Shown: piece by piece, positions 21,983 through 27,779 of the stretch | Layout of the letters: every line of letters begins with the position of its first letter | How positions within the stretch are numbered: position 1 is the first letter of the stretch | Position numbers and translations under genes: made by a program | NCBI GenBank assembly: GCA_902797855.1 | Contig: CADBUI010000012.1 | Location: 1 to 33,112 of the forward strand | Direction: 5' to 3' | Length of the DNA: 33,112 bases | DNA from: an uncultured Erysipelotrichaceae bacterium | GTDB lineage: Bacteria; Bacillota_I; Bacilli_A; RFN20; CAG-826 | Notes under the pieces: model-generated | Told to the model about the DNA's origin: nothing | Seen by the model: only the letters and a program-made list of their open reading frames with translations | The model's database searches: none

Positions 21983-22321
21983 ATGGCTAAGAAAGAAGTT
22001 AAGAAAGCACCTGCTAAGAAAGCTGCTCCTGCTAAGAAAGCTGCTCCTGCTAAAAAGGCTGCTCCAGCAAAGAAGGCACCAGCAAAAGCTGCACCAAAAA
22101 GCGATGGTAAATTCTACACTGCTAGTAAAAACAAAGATAGTGGCATGTGGGAAATTAAACTCGCACAAACAAAAGGTGCTGCCGGTAAGGTTATTGCTAA
22201 ATTCAAAACCAAACCAGAAGCTGAAGAATACATCAACGGTTTAACCGCTAAAAATGGTCGTAAAGCCATCATCCATAATTCCAAGGGTGATTCAAAAGGC
22301 AAAGCCAAAAAAGTTAAATAA
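21983..22321 (+). CDS. Histone H1-like basic protein with a DUF2188-like domain
   Basis: The protein has 112 residues. Residues 1-40 are an Ala/Lys/Pro tail in which AAPAKK is repeated (18-nt DNA repeats), like the C-terminal tail of histone H1. Residues about 43-98 form a small alpha/beta domain (KFYTASKNKDSGMWEIKLAQ, VIAKFKTKPEAEEYI, KAIIHNSKGD) resembling DUF2188. The C-terminus is again basic. A role in DNA or RNA binding or compaction is likely but inferred. AAAGGA lies 7 nt before the ATG. The gene follows mgtE closely and has its own terminator. Confidence 0.75.
   Translation: MAKKEVKKAPAKKAAPAKKAAPAKKAAPAKKAPAKAAPKSDGKFYTASKNKDSGMWEIKLAQTKGAAGKVIAKFKTKPEAEEYINGLTAKNGRKAIIHNSKGDSKGKAKKVK
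22008..22080 (+). repeat. Tandem 18-nt coding repeat (AAPAKK)
   Basis: Three to four imperfect copies of an 18-nt unit beginning GCTCCTGCTAAGAAAGCT encode the basic tail of the H1-like protein. Copies diverge at third positions, so expansion is not recent. Confidence 0.75.
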
Positions 22322-22334
22322 ATTTAAAAATATT

Positions 22335-22370
22335 GGGTGAATTAATCTATGTTCACCCTTTATTTTTTAT
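22335..22370 (+). terminator. Terminator of the H1-like gene
   Basis: GGGTGAA (22335-22341) and TTCACCC (22352-22358), followed by TTTATTTTTT. Confidence 0.85.
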
Positions 22371-22574: not shown

Positions 22575-22591
22575 TTTATTGAGGTATGGGT

Positions 22592-22912
22592 ATGGCAAAA
22601 ACGGAGACAGTACACACAAGAGTGACACATGAAATTAAAAAACAAGCAGACGAAATCTTTTCAAGATTAGGATTAACGACTAGTCAGGCAATTATGCTTT
22701 TTTTAACTGCAGTTGTTAATCATAATGGAATGCCTTTTGAACTCACTGTTCCAAAGGAAGAAGATGAAGATCTTAAGTTTGCTATTTCTGTCGCTACTGT
22801 AGATGGAGTACCTCCAACTAAAGAGGCACAAAAAATAATTAGACTCTATTCAAAAGGAGACATTGATTATGAAACTGCCCAATTTGCACTCGAAAGGATT
22901 TATAAACATTGA
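22592..22912 (+). CDS. RelB/DinJ-type antitoxin with VbhA-like C-terminal region
   Basis: The protein has 106 residues. Residues 1-52 are a RelB/DinJ ribbon-helix-helix: TVHTRVTHEIKKQADEIFSRLGLTTSQAIMLFL, then GMPFELTVP. Residues 61-106 resemble VbhA-type Fic antitoxins: an inhibitory-helix-like VATVDG at 67-72, then KEAQKIIRLYSKGDIDYETAQFALERIY. The canonical [S/T]xxxE[G/N] motif would here read with Val for Ser and Asp for Glu. The protein should bind its operator and neutralise the Fic partner. The ATG at 22592 has GAGG 7 nt upstream; the ATG at 22586 is too close to it. The stop overlaps the Fic start by 1 nt. RelB assignment is firm; the VbhA-like part is by motif reading. Confidence 0.82.
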   Translation: MAKTETVHTRVTHEIKKQADEIFSRLGLTTSQAIMLFLTAVVNHNGMPFELTVPKEEDEDLKFAISVATVDGVPPTKEAQKIIRLYSKGDIDYETAQFALERIYKH

Positions 22913-23649
22913 TGAAAGACCCATACGTTTACGAAGGAACCAACATTTTAAAAAACAAGTTTAATATCAAAGATGAGAAAGAACTTGATGAACTCGAATC
23001 TGCTTTTGTAGGATTAGCGATCGTTTCATTAAAAAGAAGTGATTTTAAGATTAACAGCATTCAAGATGTATTAAAGATTCATAACAAACTATTTTCAAAA
23101 GTTTATGATTGGGCAGGTAAACCAAGAACAATTGATATCTTCAAAAGAGAATCAATACTTGGCGATAAATCAATAGATTATGTCTTTGCCTCTTATATTG
23201 ATATTGCTCTTGATGAATTAAATACTGAATTTAAAGTTATCAACTGGAATAAATTAAATCCGAAAGAGAAAGTAGATAAAATCTGCTATTTTGTATCCGA
23301 GTTTTGGCACATCCATCCATTTAGAGAAGGTAACACCAGAACCACAGCGATGATGCTATATTATCTAATTAAGAAAGCTGGGCTACATATAAACACAGAT
23401 TTCTTATTAAAGAATGGATATTACTTCAGAAACGCTTTAGCGTTATCTTGTTTATATAGTTCATCAAAACCTGAATATCTACTTGGTATAGTTAAAGATT
23501 CAGTTACGTTAAAAAATATCGATGAAAACAAATACCAAACAATCGAAGGAATTGATGTTAGTAAATACGCTTATCAAAATCACACGGTTGAGAAACTTAA
23601 AACAATTAAGAAACCTAAAGATTGGAAGAAAAAAGAAGGCCTTATTTGA
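22912..23649 (+). CDS. Fic family toxin (Fic-motif protein), second motif Arg absent
   Basis: The protein has 245 residues. The catalytic loop HPFREGNTRTTA lies at 135-146, preceded by the beta-hairpin flap DWAGKPRTIDIFK (67-79) and the helical Fic core. Fic enzymes transfer AMP or other phosphate-containing groups to target proteins. Relative to HxFx(D/E)GNGRxxR, the first Gly after Asn is Thr142 and the last Arg is Ala146, so the usual gamma-phosphate contact and partner of the inhibitory Glu is missing, as in Doc. The catalytic His135 is intact. The ATG at 22912 shares its A with the antitoxin stop TGA. The end overlaps the convergent hydrogenase gene by 8 bp. Confidence 0.92.
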   Translation: MKDPYVYEGTNILKNKFNIKDEKELDELESAFVGLAIVSLKRSDFKINSIQDVLKIHNKLFSKVYDWAGKPRTIDIFKRESILGDKSIDYVFASYIDIALDELNTEFKVINWNKLNPKEKVDKICYFVSEFWHIHPFREGNTRTTAMMLYYLIKKAGLHINTDFLLKNGYYFRNALALSCLYSSSKPEYLLGIVKDSVTLKNIDENKYQTIEGIDVSKYAYQNHTVEKLKTIKKPKDWKKKEGLI

Positions 23650-25075
23650 CCTTCTTTTCAATGTTCGCAATTGATTCTTCGATTGTTCTTTCGGTTGATT
23701 GTTTTCCGTATTTATCAACTTCGGATTTATCGCGGAATTCATGGGTGAGACAGCATGGTCCACCAATACAACCACCAGAACACGCCATACCTTCAAGGAA
23801 ATTGAATTCTTTATTCATGCTGGCTTTTGATAGCATAAGTTTACAGTTATCAAGTCCATCAGCGCTTGTAGCTTTAAGTTCAAAATCTGAGTTTTGCTCT
23901 TTTAAAGCTTCGCTTACTGCATCAGCTAGTCCACCACATCTAGCGAATATTCTTCCGAAATATGAAGCGTTATAGAGTTTACCTTCTTCTAATGAAGCAA
24001 GATCAATATCTCGTGCGTCAATCATAGCTTGAAGTTCTTCAAATGTGATTACTGCATCAACATATGGTTTAACTTTTGGATCTTCAATTTCTCTTTTCTT
24101 AGAAACGCATGGTCCAATAAAGACTGTTTTAGCATTTGGATTATTTTCTTTTATCCATTTAGCGATAGTCGCCATTGGGGAAAGATTAGATGAGATATTA
24201 TCTGCGAGTTTTGGATAATATTTTTTAATTAATGAGACAAATGTTGGACAGCAACTTGAAGTTAAGAATCCTTTTTCAGCAAGTTCTTTAGCTTCTGCGA
24301 ACGCAACCATATCTGCACCTAAGGCAGCTTCAATTACATGAGAGAATCCTAGTTTTTCAATCGCAGTTACTACTTGTCCAAGTGAAGCATATTTAAACTG
24401 AGATGAGACTGATGGAGCAACGATTGCATACACTGGATATTTTTTAGAGAAATCACTATCTTTTAAGATATCTATCACATTAGTGATAAATGACTTATCC
24501 ATGATAGCTCCAAATGGGCATTGATAGACGCACGCACCACATTGAATACATTTACTATCATCAATATGTGCAGCATGATCTACGTCCATTGAAATAGCTT
24601 TAACTTTACAAGCTTGTTCACATGGTCTTTGATAATTTTGAATTGCGTTATATTGGCAGGCTTTCGCACACATTCCACAATTAATACAAACTTCTTTATT
24701 AATAACTGCTGAGTGAGTGACTGGGTCAAAACTAATAGCGCCTTTTCGACATGCACTTGAACATCTATGAGCGATACAACCTCGACATCTATTCGTGACT
24801 TCATATCCTCCAAGTGGACATTCATCACAGGCTATTTTGATAACTTCGACAACATTATTAATTTCTTTATTTCCACCTAATGCGAGTTTAATTCTTTCAA
24901 GTACGATTGCTCTTTCTTTATAAATACAACAACGCATTGTTGGTTTTGGTCCTGGAACAATTCGTTCAGGAATTTCTAAAGATTCTTTTGCTAAAGTACC
25001 GTTAAAATAGGCTCTAGCAATCTCTTTTAGGACTTTATATTTTAACTCTTGGACTCTGGTATCAAATTTGTTCAT
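23642..25075 (-). CDS. Monomeric [FeFe]-hydrogenase, group B-like
   Basis: The protein has 477 residues. The N-terminal half carries cysteine clusters for several 4Fe-4S centres: C97/C100/C105/C109, C130/C133/C136/C140, and C176/C179/C182/C186. The C-terminal half is the H-cluster domain with L1 SCCPTF (about 274-279), L2 GPCVSKKRE (321-329) and L3 EGMACSGGCIGG (428-439). These variants (SCCPTF rather than SCCPAW; EGMAC) match group B enzymes, whose in vivo role is not settled. It should reduce protons or oxidise H2 with ferredoxin. Maturases HydEFG are not in the window. AGAGG precedes the ATG; an extended -10 TGTGATACAAT lies upstream. Confidence 0.9.
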   Translation of the reverse strand: MNKFDTRVQELKYKVLKEIARAYFNGTLAKESLEIPERIVPGPKPTMRCCIYKERAIVLERIKLALGGNKEINNVVEVIKIACDECPLGGYEVTNRCRGCIAHRCSSACRKGAISFDPVTHSAVINKEVCINCGMCAKACQYNAIQNYQRPCEQACKVKAISMDVDHAAHIDDSKCIQCGACVYQCPFGAIMDKSFITNVIDILKDSDFSKKYPVYAIVAPSVSSQFKYASLGQVVTAIEKLGFSHVIEAALGADMVAFAEAKELAEKGFLTSSCCPTFVSLIKKYYPKLADNISSNLSPMATIAKWIKENNPNAKTVFIGPCVSKKREIEDPKVKPYVDAVITFEELQAMIDARDIDLASLEEGKLYNASYFGRIFARCGGLADAVSEALKEQNSDFELKATSADGLDNCKLMLSKASMNKEFNFLEGMACSGGCIGGPCCLTHEFRDKSEVDKYGKQSTERTIEESIANIEKKVK

Positions 25076-25163: not shown

Positions 25164-27779
25164 TTATTCGCCTTTGTAGGCTTTTTTAAGAATTACTTTC
25201 ATGTCTTCCACGAGTGGGACTCTTGGGTTACATGGTGAACATTGATCTTCGTAGGCAAGAACTGCAATACGGTCAATTTTATTATTCCATTCTTCTTCAC
25301 TCATGCCATAGCTAGCGAAGTTATCACTAAGTCCAATTTCAACTTGGAGATCATGACATGCTTTTGCAAGGGATTCAACACCTTCCTCAGGTGTATCAGC
25401 CTTTAAGCCAAGTAGACGAGCGATATCTTGATATTTCTTATCTGCACAATAGCAATTATATTTTGGCCATGTGGATAGTTTAGTTGGAACTTGTCCATTA
25501 TATCTAATGACATATGGAAGAAGCACACCACAGGTGTGACCATGGACTGTGTGGAACTCTGCACCTACTTTATGAGCAAGTGAGTGAGTCATACCTAAGA
25601 AAGCATTTGCGAACGCCATACCAGCAATTGTGGCAGCATTATGCATCTTTTCACGAGCTTCTAAATCATGCGGACCATCTTTAACTGCTCTTGGAAGATA
25701 TTTGAAGACAAGTTCAATGGCTTTAATAGCTAGACCATCAGTGAAGTCATTAGCCATGACACTAACATAGGCCTCAATTGCGTGAGTGAGAACGTCCATA
25801 CCTGTCATAGCTGTTGCTTTTGGAGGAAGATTTGTTGTAAATTCAGCATCAACAATCGCAACAGTTGGGGTAAGAGAATAGTCTGTTAATGGATATTTCT
25901 TATTATTTTTCTTATCAGAAATAACCGCGAATGGAGTGACTTCACTACCAGTTCCGGATGTTGTTGGAATACAAATTAAACGAGATTGTTTTCCAAGTTC
26001 TGGATATTTGAATGCTCTTTTACGAATATCCATAAATTTTTGTTTGAGGTCATCAAAGTTAACTTCTGGATGTTCATAGAATAACCACATACCCTTAGCG
26101 GCGTCCATGACTGAACCACCACCTAAAGCAATAATGACATCTGGCTTAAAGATTTTCATCATTGCTGCGCCTTTACGGACTGTTTCAATATCTGGATCTG
26201 GTTCAACATCACAGAATAACTGCATTTGAACTTTATTTCTTCTTAAGTTAAGTTGGTCTGCAACTTTCTTGAAGAATCCAAATTCCACCATTGAAGTATC
26301 AGTGACAATAAAGGCTTTATTGATATTTTTACATGATTGTAAATATTGAATTGAATTACGTTCGAAATAAATTTTCGAAGGAACTTTAAACCACTGCACT
26401 GTATTTCTCCTTTTACCTACTTTCTTAATATTAAGTAAGTTAACTGCGCTGACGTTACCGCCGATAGAGTTATGTCCATAACTACCACAACCAAGAGTTA
26501 ATGATGGTAAAAATGAGTTATAGACATTACCGATTCCACCAAAGGTGGCAGGTGAATTCCAAATGATTCTCATAGCTGGAACAAGTTCACCATATCGATC
26601 GGACATCTCTTGTTCTTTACAGTGAATAGCAGCAGAGTGACCTAAACCATTAAAGGAAACCATTTCAAATGCTTTTTGGAATCCTTCTTTTTCTCCTTCG
26701 ACTTTAAAGACTGCAAGCACTGGAGAAAGTTTTTCTCTAGAAATAGGTTCTTTTGGACCGACTTCTTTACATTCAATCGCGATGATAGAAGTATCTTCAG
26801 GAACTTTTACACCAGCTTGAGAAGCGATCCAATACGCGCTTTTACCAACGATATCTGGATTAAGTTTTCCGTTTTCCACTCCTTCATCACCTTCAGCAAA
26901 GCCGAACATGAATCTAGATAATTTCTTCTTTTCTTCTTTACTTGCAAAGTAAACTTTGAAACGTTTGAATAATTCAACTGCTTCAGAGTAGATTTCTTTA
27001 TCGATAATCACAGCTTGTTCAGAAGCACAAATCATACCATTATCAAATGATTTAGATAAAACGATATCATTCACTGCTTGTTCAACATTGCATGATTTAT
27101 TCATATATGCTGGAACGTTGCCTGCTCCAACACCCATGGCTGGTTTACCACAGCTATAAGCTGCTCTAACCATGGCGTTACCACCAGTAGCAAGAATTGT
27201 TGCGACTCCTGGATGGTTCATAAGAGCACTGGTTGCATCCATGGAAGGATGTTCAATCCATTGAATACAGTTTTCTGGGGCCCCGGCTTTAACAGCCGCA
27301 TCTCTCATGATAACCGCAGCTTCTTTTGAACATTGTTGTGCGCTTGGGTGGAAGGCAAAGATAATTGGGTTTCTAGTCTTTAAACAAATAAGTGATTTAA
27401 AGATGACAGTTGATGTTGGGTTAGTAACTGGGGTGATACCACAGATAACTCCAACAGGCTCAGCGATTTCTGTAATACCAGTGACTGGGTCTTCAGAAAT
27501 AACTCCAACTGTCTTAAGATGGCGCATATTATTCACAACATATTCGCAAGCGAATAAGTTCTTGGTAGCCTTATCTTCAAAGACACCGCGTTTTGTTTCA
27601 TTAATTGCGCTAGCGGCAAGTGTGCCGTGATGATCAAGACCAGCGACCGAACATTTAGCGACAATGTGGTCGATTTGATCTTGAGTTAATAACAAAAATT
27701 CATCGAGAGCTTTGGTAGCCTTCTTAACAAGCTCATCGACTTCTTTTTGAGGATCAATAACAGGTGTTTTCTTTTCCAT
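25164..27779 (-). CDS. adhE: Bifunctional aldehyde-alcohol dehydrogenase
   Basis: The protein has 871 residues, the full AdhE length. Residues 1-440 are a CoA-acylating aldehyde dehydrogenase (NGMICASEQAVI holds the catalytic Cys; GGNAMVRAAYSCGKPAMGVGAGN). A linker leads to an iron-dependent alcohol dehydrogenase (about 455-871; IALGGGSVMDAAKGMW, PTTSGTGSEVTPFAV, and GMTHSLAHKVGAEFHTVHGH with the Fe ligands). It reduces acetyl-CoA to ethanol and regenerates 2 NAD+, usually as cytosolic spirosomes. The ATG overlaps the rex stop by 1 nt, so Rex controls its own target operon. Confidence 0.97.
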   Translation of the reverse strand: MEKKTPVIDPQKEVDELVKKATKALDEFLLLTQDQIDHIVAKCSVAGLDHHGTLAASAINETKRGVFEDKATKNLFACEYVVNNMRHLKTVGVISEDPVTGITEIAEPVGVICGITPVTNPTSTVIFKSLICLKTRNPIIFAFHPSAQQCSKEAAVIMRDAAVKAGAPENCIQWIEHPSMDATSALMNHPGVATILATGGNAMVRAAYSCGKPAMGVGAGNVPAYMNKSCNVEQAVNDIVLSKSFDNGMICASEQAVIIDKEIYSEAVELFKRFKVYFASKEEKKKLSRFMFGFAEGDEGVENGKLNPDIVGKSAYWIASQAGVKVPEDTSIIAIECKEVGPKEPISREKLSPVLAVFKVEGEKEGFQKAFEMVSFNGLGHSAAIHCKEQEMSDRYGELVPAMRIIWNSPATFGGIGNVYNSFLPSLTLGCGSYGHNSIGGNVSAVNLLNIKKVGKRRNTVQWFKVPSKIYFERNSIQYLQSCKNINKAFIVTDTSMVEFGFFKKVADQLNLRRNKVQMQLFCDVEPDPDIETVRKGAAMMKIFKPDVIIALGGGSVMDAAKGMWLFYEHPEVNFDDLKQKFMDIRKRAFKYPELGKQSRLICIPTTSGTGSEVTPFAVISDKKNNKKYPLTDYSLTPTVAIVDAEFTTNLPPKATAMTGMDVLTHAIEAYVSVMANDFTDGLAIKAIELVFKYLPRAVKDGPHDLEAREKMHNAATIAGMAFANAFLGMTHSLAHKVGAEFHTVHGHTCGVLLPYVIRYNGQVPTKLSTWPKYNCYCADKKYQDIARLLGLKADTPEEGVESLAKACHDLQVEIGLSDNFASYGMSEEEWNNKIDRIAVLAYEDQCSPCNPRVPLVEDMKVILKKAYKGE

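Follow-up and report, generated by a model that had tools for sequence, protein, structure and literature searches.

Histone H1-like proteins of bacteria, among them BpH1/HctA, Rv3852 and the tail of HupB, carry a basic segment rich in Lys, Ala and Pro. A literature search found no functional study of DUF2188 and no function for DUF1508, the two domain families that are of concern below. According to passages of one report, KPAA peptides of AlgP bind DNA in vitro (PMC9239181). Extensions of ribosomal proteins are described as common in bacteria in passages of another report, which also state that 11 of the 52 ribosomal proteins of Mycoplasma pneumoniae are extended, that most of these extensions are predicted to be disordered and that disrupting them affects fitness or survival (PMC9534751).

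The stretch of DNA analysed here (the window; 33,112 nucleotides from an uncultured Erysipelotrichaceae bacterium) encodes a small protein of 11.8 kDa with a pI of 10.4, both computed from the sequence, in which a basic arm precedes a folded domain (Table 1). The gene lies between an mgtE-like gene, identified by Pfam, and tRNA-Leu(GAG). Only 21 nt separate the stop codon of the mgtE-like gene from the start of the open reading frame (ORF), and co-transcription of the two genes is possible. Behind the gene, positions 22322-22375 fold with a z score of -5.6, and none of 200 shuffled sequences folded equally well.

Table 1. Features of the gene for the arm-bearing DUF2188 protein and of its surroundings (positions in the window)
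Feature	Position	Strand	Remarks
ORF, basic arm and DUF2188 domain	21983..22321	+	112 aa, ATG start
N-terminal Lys/Ala/Pro arm, residues 1-41	21983..22105	+	net +12, four APAKKA units
18-bp tandem repeat	22010..22074	+	3.6 copies, 89% matches; encodes most APAKKA units
Divergent DUF2188 domain, residues 43-112	22109..22318	+	net +12
Ribosome-binding-like AAGAAAGGAT (AAAGGA) 5' of start codon	21967..21976	+	
Terminator-like hairpin and T-rich tract 3' of gene	22335..22368	+	
RelB-like gene, directly followed by Fic/Doc gene	22586..23649	+	Pfam E 5.2e-16 and 6.1e-14; likely a toxin-antitoxin pair
Iron-only-hydrogenase-like ORF	23642..25075	-	477 aa; named by eye
AdhE-like ORF	25164..27779	-	adjoins the hydrogenase-like ORF; named by eye

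The initial annotation had described an H1-like Lys/Ala/Pro tail joined to a DUF2188-like domain and had suggested an unusual nucleoid or RNA-binding protein. Computed in full, the two-part anatomy is plain. The ORF is exact at 21983-22321, and Lys, Ala and Pro make up 88% of the arm (14, 16 and 6 residues respectively), while acidic residues account for 2 of 41. APAKKA begins at arm residues 9, 15, 21 and 27, and shuffling the arm 20,000 times never gave four copies. AlphaFold gives a pLDDT of 52-55 over the residue blocks 1-40, and the protein thus has the Lys/Ala/Pro-rich, disordered and basic segment found in H1-like bacterial proteins. In a set of 327 ORFs with 80 aa or more, taken from the window and from 19 stretches of the same bacterial family that were chosen for their DUF2188 genes and exclude the ribosomal operons with similar tails, DUF2188 proteins own all 17 of the 40-residue segments richest in Lys, Ala and Pro, the window protein being one of their owners.

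The identity of the domain had to be established with its own relatives. Pfam alone falls short, since the DUF2188 model (PF09954) gives the window protein 15.6 bits, under the gathering cut-off of 22, whereas relative L016 reaches 67 bits with the same model. A profile of 50 relatives, built without the window protein and without its nearest relative in genome G100, gives the bare, tail-less domain a score of 39.1 bits (E 3.2e-11 for a database size of 1000); the highest score among 2,000 domain shuffles was 14.7 bits. With the window row included, DUF2188 was matched by all 15 rows of a first domain alignment (E<=1) and by all 51 rows of a second (E<=10, best 1.1e-22). By these profile scores, the window domain is recognized as a divergent DUF2188 homologue below the Pfam calling cut-off, and the domain assignment of the initial annotation is upheld. 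The copy in G100, another genome of the genus, is 75% identical, pairs with it in the domain tree and is the only other aligned row with the four-residue insertion seen in the window domain. At E<=1, Pfam returned no ribosomal protein family for the window protein. A match to the RNase H1 N-terminal hybrid-binding domain (PF01693, Cauli_VI; 16.1 against a cut-off of 21 bits, E 0.014) recurred in only 1 of the 15 and 1 of the 51 alignment rows and was treated as chance.

DUF2188 is widespread in the lineage. The domain profile matched (E<=1e-4) 158 of 196 sampled genomes of the bacterial family to which the window belongs, in 23 of 35 genera. In genomes of completeness >=85, DUF2188 reached E<=1e-5 in 151 of 192 from the order and in 151 of 392 from a sample of the phylum; two of 14 control genomes, those of Bacillus subtilis and Corynebacterium glutamicum, also have it. 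Among the best 80 of 112 matches, the named relatives come from uncultured Bacilli (many of them Erysipelotrichaceae or Bacillales, and several of rumen or faecal origin) and from Clostridia, including Candidatus Borkfalkia. Mollicutes-type genomes mostly encode the domain with little else attached, and a few of them have longer versions. Three DUF2188 domains occur in one protein in L167 and L168 (genomes G466 and G561), directly behind a gene that is YebC-like by eye. The window protein matched nothing among phages at E<=0.01. Its tail-less relative L094 matched 22 phage records at E<=10, 16 of them from Streptococcus phages; where annotated, these genes (for example in MK448781.1, Streptococcus phage Javan5) are mostly hypothetical.

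Positive charge prevails in the domain. Across 90 distinct sequences, the window's included, the computed net charge averages +9.0 and is +5 or more in 97%, a value attained by 6.6% of 1,293 62-aa segments from the same bacterial family. Of 24 domains from distinct long fusion proteins, 22 carry +8 to +12, and the other two are L026 (+5) and the paralogue in the window's own genome (+4). Charge is also low in L131 and L132 (+2 each), and 18 single-domain proteins from outside the bacterial family range from +3 to +12.

A tentative reading, and the one preferred here, makes the window protein a small soluble accessory factor; its ligand would be a polyanion, RNA being the likeliest one, and its site of action probably the ribosome or its vicinity. 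Of its two parts, the DUF2188 domain of about 65 aa, which is folded and as a rule basic, would be the constant binding part, and the disordered lysine-rich arm would add non-specific electrostatic affinity and reach. The prevailing charge of the domain speaks for this reading, as do, among the data given below, the sharing of the arm motif, the net positive arms of most long-armed small relatives and the weak nucleic acid-binding neighbours of the predicted fold. Against it stand the less basic domains, the weakness of the fold matches, the relatives with a short or missing arm and the FtsH and flippase-like proteins that bear such tails. That the ligand is a nucleic acid, that the nucleic acid is RNA and that the site is the ribosome are steps we infer, the last of them from the arm motif that is shared with ribosomal proteins.

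This sharing was computed directly. In the window's own genome, all 13 sites that code for APAKKA lie in six genes, namely those for uL22, uS17, uL5 and uS2 (identified by Pfam) and two DUF2188 genes, and the reversed pattern gave no hit. In eight further genomes, picked for having DUF2188 genes so that the share of DUF2188 is biased, all 38 sites lie in 22 genes (six named by Pfam, the rest by eye): 13 ribosomal, seven DUF2188, one trigger factor and one FtsH. The reversed pattern was found there once. A second motif, KPAAKK, was followed in the own genome and seven others, and its 13 sites, confined to four of these genomes, fall in 12 genes, named by eye: eight ribosomal genes, the trigger factor of the own genome, an FtsH, a DUF2188 membrane protein and a flippase-like membrane protein. 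The survey of such tails in the own genome covers these two exact motifs. Long extensions of Lys, Ala, Pro and Glu were seen there on uL22, uS17, uL5 and uS2 (by Pfam) and on trigger factor (by eye), at L227, L228, L231, L241 and L288. Since the exact motif of the arm is shared in the own genome with ribosomal proteins, joined by trigger factor for the second motif, 'RNA-binding' is the better half of the initial suggestion. With its net charge of 0, the uS17 tail shows that proteins with the motif in common do not necessarily bind alike.

The arm is the variable part of the family, being longer, shorter, of mixed charge or absent, and the domain is the constant part. Loss of the tail in orthologues, which the initial annotation had held to speak against its proposal, was found in part: the nearest relative, in G100, keeps a shorter basic arm (29 aa, +9), whereas L030, L094, L126, L130, L131 and L132 have only 2-5 residues before the domain, and other relatives have arms of mixed charge or, in the arm's place, a membrane anchor with a linker. 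Among 55 distinct small relatives of Bacilli type, 43 have at least 25 residues before the domain, and the remaining 12 have 5-24 residues with a net charge of -1 to +6. In 34 small relatives of Clostridia type, the segment before the domain measures 2-141 residues with a net charge of -3 to +17.

Such variation is what would be expected if the arm were a neutral by-product, in which low-complexity extensions of Ala, Lys, Pro and Glu grow by repeat slippage in highly expressed genes of this lineage and the domain alone matters. This possibility is somewhat doubtful, and it is compatible with another explanation of the domain. The 18-bp tandem repeat in the DNA, the varying length and charge of the arm and the presence of the same type of tail on FtsH and on uS17, where its net charge is 0, are consistent with it, as are the passages cited above on bacterial ribosomal extensions, common and, in M. 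pneumoniae, mostly predicted to be disordered (PMC9534751). The same source argues the other way where it states that disruption of the M. pneumoniae extensions affects fitness or survival. Also, the arm is net positive (+4 to +23) in 42 of the 43 long-armed small relatives of Bacilli type, which slippage alone would not keep; the exception, L075 (net -4), probably forms the end of a longer protein.

Computation also showed DUF2188 in use as a module at the C-terminus of membrane proteins and of an ABC ATPase. The paralogue in the own genome is a protein of 376 aa with about three predicted membrane segments, a long linker of Lys, Glu, Pro and Ala and DUF2188 at the C-terminus. Twenty long-frame relatives were picked, of which 15 are polytopic (3-11 membrane segments by hydropathy) and five are OppD/OppF-like ABC ATPases from one genus, one named by Pfam and the others by eye. 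In L033-L036, at 1,249-1,365 aa, two OppD/OppF-like ATPases are fused, long inserts are present and DUF2188 forms the C-terminus (one by Pfam, the others by eye), and L037, at 820 aa, looks like one half of such a fusion; these five come from five genomes. When ten long proteins were searched with Pfam, all ten contained DUF2188, the partners being ABC_tran with oligo_HPY, MFS_2 and DUF4234 in one protein each, and the other seven had no partner at E<=0.001. On the domain tree, which comprises 113 rows and 64 columns, is poorly resolved and was used only for repeated membrane fusions, these fusions account for seven changes, at least four of which are forced by starred branches. In this bacterial family DUF2188 thus serves as a portable module at the C-terminus, which was repeatedly joined to polytopic membrane proteins and, in one genus, to an OppD/OppF-like ABC ATPase. 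Outside the family, seven of 20 proteins have one membrane helix, at the N-terminus, which a linker joins to DUF2188, and several of the 20 lack a membrane segment (for example L171, 303 aa). In three genomes of one genus, a long frame of 357-544 aa with DUF2188, known by its length only, lies about 30-50 nt from a short-frame match on the same strand (G018:C4, G045:C18 and G066:C18).

The neighbours of the small gene change between genomes, and a conserved operon was considered and rejected; none that ties the gene to translation was found across the genera compared. The copy in G100 has neighbours other than an mgtE-like gene and tRNA-Leu(GAG). Directly behind the mgtE-like gene, G037 and G138 have tRNA-Leu(GAG), with no small gene in between. 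In these two genomes and in G120, the small gene lies near another tRNA cluster; a lipoprotein gene precedes it, and a NifU-like gene on the opposite strand comes after it (names given by eye). In the window's own genome, contig C20 ends 134 nt behind a lipoprotein-like gene (L156) whose stop codon is followed by a hairpin (by eye). In relatives of L156 a small DUF2188 gene follows, and a second small copy may lie in the assembly gap behind this contig; the own assembly yielded no NifU-like gene. In one subclade a BipA-like GTPase gene and the small gene are divergently oriented, an arrangement seen by eye at 14 of 80 loci and at none of the others.

A rather unlikely explanation, drawn from the fusions and from one set of neighbours, sees in DUF2188 a domain that docks, on the cytoplasmic side, to a protein partner or to anionic lipids, with the free, tailed proteins as its soluble counterparts. 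The polytopic and ABC ATPase relatives and the single-helix proteins described above point in this direction. In one Mollicutes-type genus, a cardiolipin-synthase-like gene follows in 12 of 32 neighbourhoods and a secA-like gene precedes in 8 of 32, the names being given by motif, BLAST or eye. However, these 32 neighbourhoods come from a single genus and are not independent, and the neighbours in other genera differ. Most small relatives, as well as some of the longer outside proteins such as L171, also lack a membrane segment. In the 12 neighbourhoods (L166, L176, L177, L178, L179, L182, L187, L195, L200, L201, L203 and L204), the phospholipase-D/cardiolipin-synthase-like gene starts 33-73 nt behind the DUF2188 match, and L166 looks like secA-DUF2188-cls.

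The predicted fold was compared with known structures. In the AlphaFold model, the window domain has strands at residues 44-49, 56-61 and 69-74, a helix at 77-91 and a strand at 94-97. The mean pLDDT of 70.9 for this model, and of 74.3 for a second one, denotes moderate confidence. A structure search with the window model gave a best Z of 5.5, with YegP tied for first. HVO_2922, NMB1088, Atu0232 and YegP, which we take to be members of the DUF1508 family, were among the top seven rows for the domain of a canonical relative (Z 3.8-4.4). Matches to DUF1508/YegP-like structures (Z 3.8-5.5 in all) are tied with unrelated rows. The predicted fold of the relative's domain also has weak neighbours among nucleic acid-binding domains (lambda integrase arm-binding, AP2 and dsRBD; Z 2.6-3.6), and the unrelated FERM, complex I and dimethylformamidase rows score as high or higher. 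The hits to a ribosomal protein and to AP2, integrase and dsRBD domains are too faint for any of them to be given a rank. Foldseek returned no match for the domain models at E<=0.001, and a sequence search of the PDB nothing below E 0.35.

A nucleoid-associated protein, whose arm would neutralize DNA as in AlgP or PhaF while the domain adds further DNA contacts, is an unlikely reading of these data. The composition of the arm resembles that of the KPAA domain of AlgP, and the structural likeness to the integrase and AP2 domains, faint as it is, agrees with DNA binding. So do an arm-DNA-binding model of Pfam that weakly matches 4 of the 51 alignment rows (best E 0.27) and a PHROG called integrase with a likewise weak match to L094 (E 7e-4). 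Several findings speak against it, namely that exact APAKKA occurs in the own genome only in ribosomal proteins and DUF2188 genes, that the arm lacks conservation and that DUF2188 is also placed on transporters and an ABC ATPase. The curated H1-like models are not matched either: NF038053, the NCBIfam model of the Burkholderia H1-like protein, gave no report for the window protein at E<=1 and scored L016 at 10.3 bits against a cut-off of 80, and the NCBIfam H1-like and Rv3852 models remained far below their cut-offs. The histone-like nature first suggested for the protein is thus partly supported, by the composition of the arm but not by membership of an H1-like family. A polyphosphate-binding or granule-organising protein like AlgP of Pseudomonas is very improbable, as the lysine-rich low-complexity tail shared with AlgP (described in passages of PMC9239181) is the sole point in favour and the domain is kept in proteins without such a tail.

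The preferred reading, an RNA-binding accessory protein near the ribosome, may be carried further. DUF2188 is distributed widely among Bacilli and is present even in Mollicutes-type genomes of 0.6-1 Mb, and the literature search yielded no function for it. Its occurrence on membrane proteins, on an ABC ATPase and in free basic-armed proteins offers this orphan domain a candidate ligand, RNA or the ribosome, and the arm motif, which elsewhere occurs chiefly in ribosomal proteins, would tie it to the translation apparatus. A more speculative proposal, which we consider improbable, is that DUF2188 is a ribosome- or RNA-docking module that the lineage appended, together with the arm wording of its ribosomal proteins, trigger factor and FtsH, to transporters and membrane proteins, so that membrane proteins become tethered to ribosomes or RNA. 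If true, Bacilli with reduced genomes would have a home-made link between membrane and translation, and the window protein would be its free soluble form.

Compared with known systems, the window protein combines familiar parts. With H1-like bacterial proteins such as AlgP and PhaF it has in common the disordered basic segment rich in Lys, Ala and Pro; its arm differs in being N-terminal, 41 aa long and placed on an unrelated fold. To DUF2188 it is homologous over the whole domain, from which the window copy departs by its insertion and by the basic arm. With DUF1508/YegP-like proteins it shares a predicted arrangement of three strands and a helix, although the match is weak, at 4-12% identity for the domain of the canonical relative. 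The wording of the arm, in APAKKA and KPAAKK, recurs in the same genomes on the extensions of ribosomal proteins (uL22, uS17, uL5, uS2, bL32 and uL23) and of trigger factor. In contrast to these extensions, the window arm is carried by a non-ribosomal domain, and it is almost purely basic while the uS17 tail is balanced.
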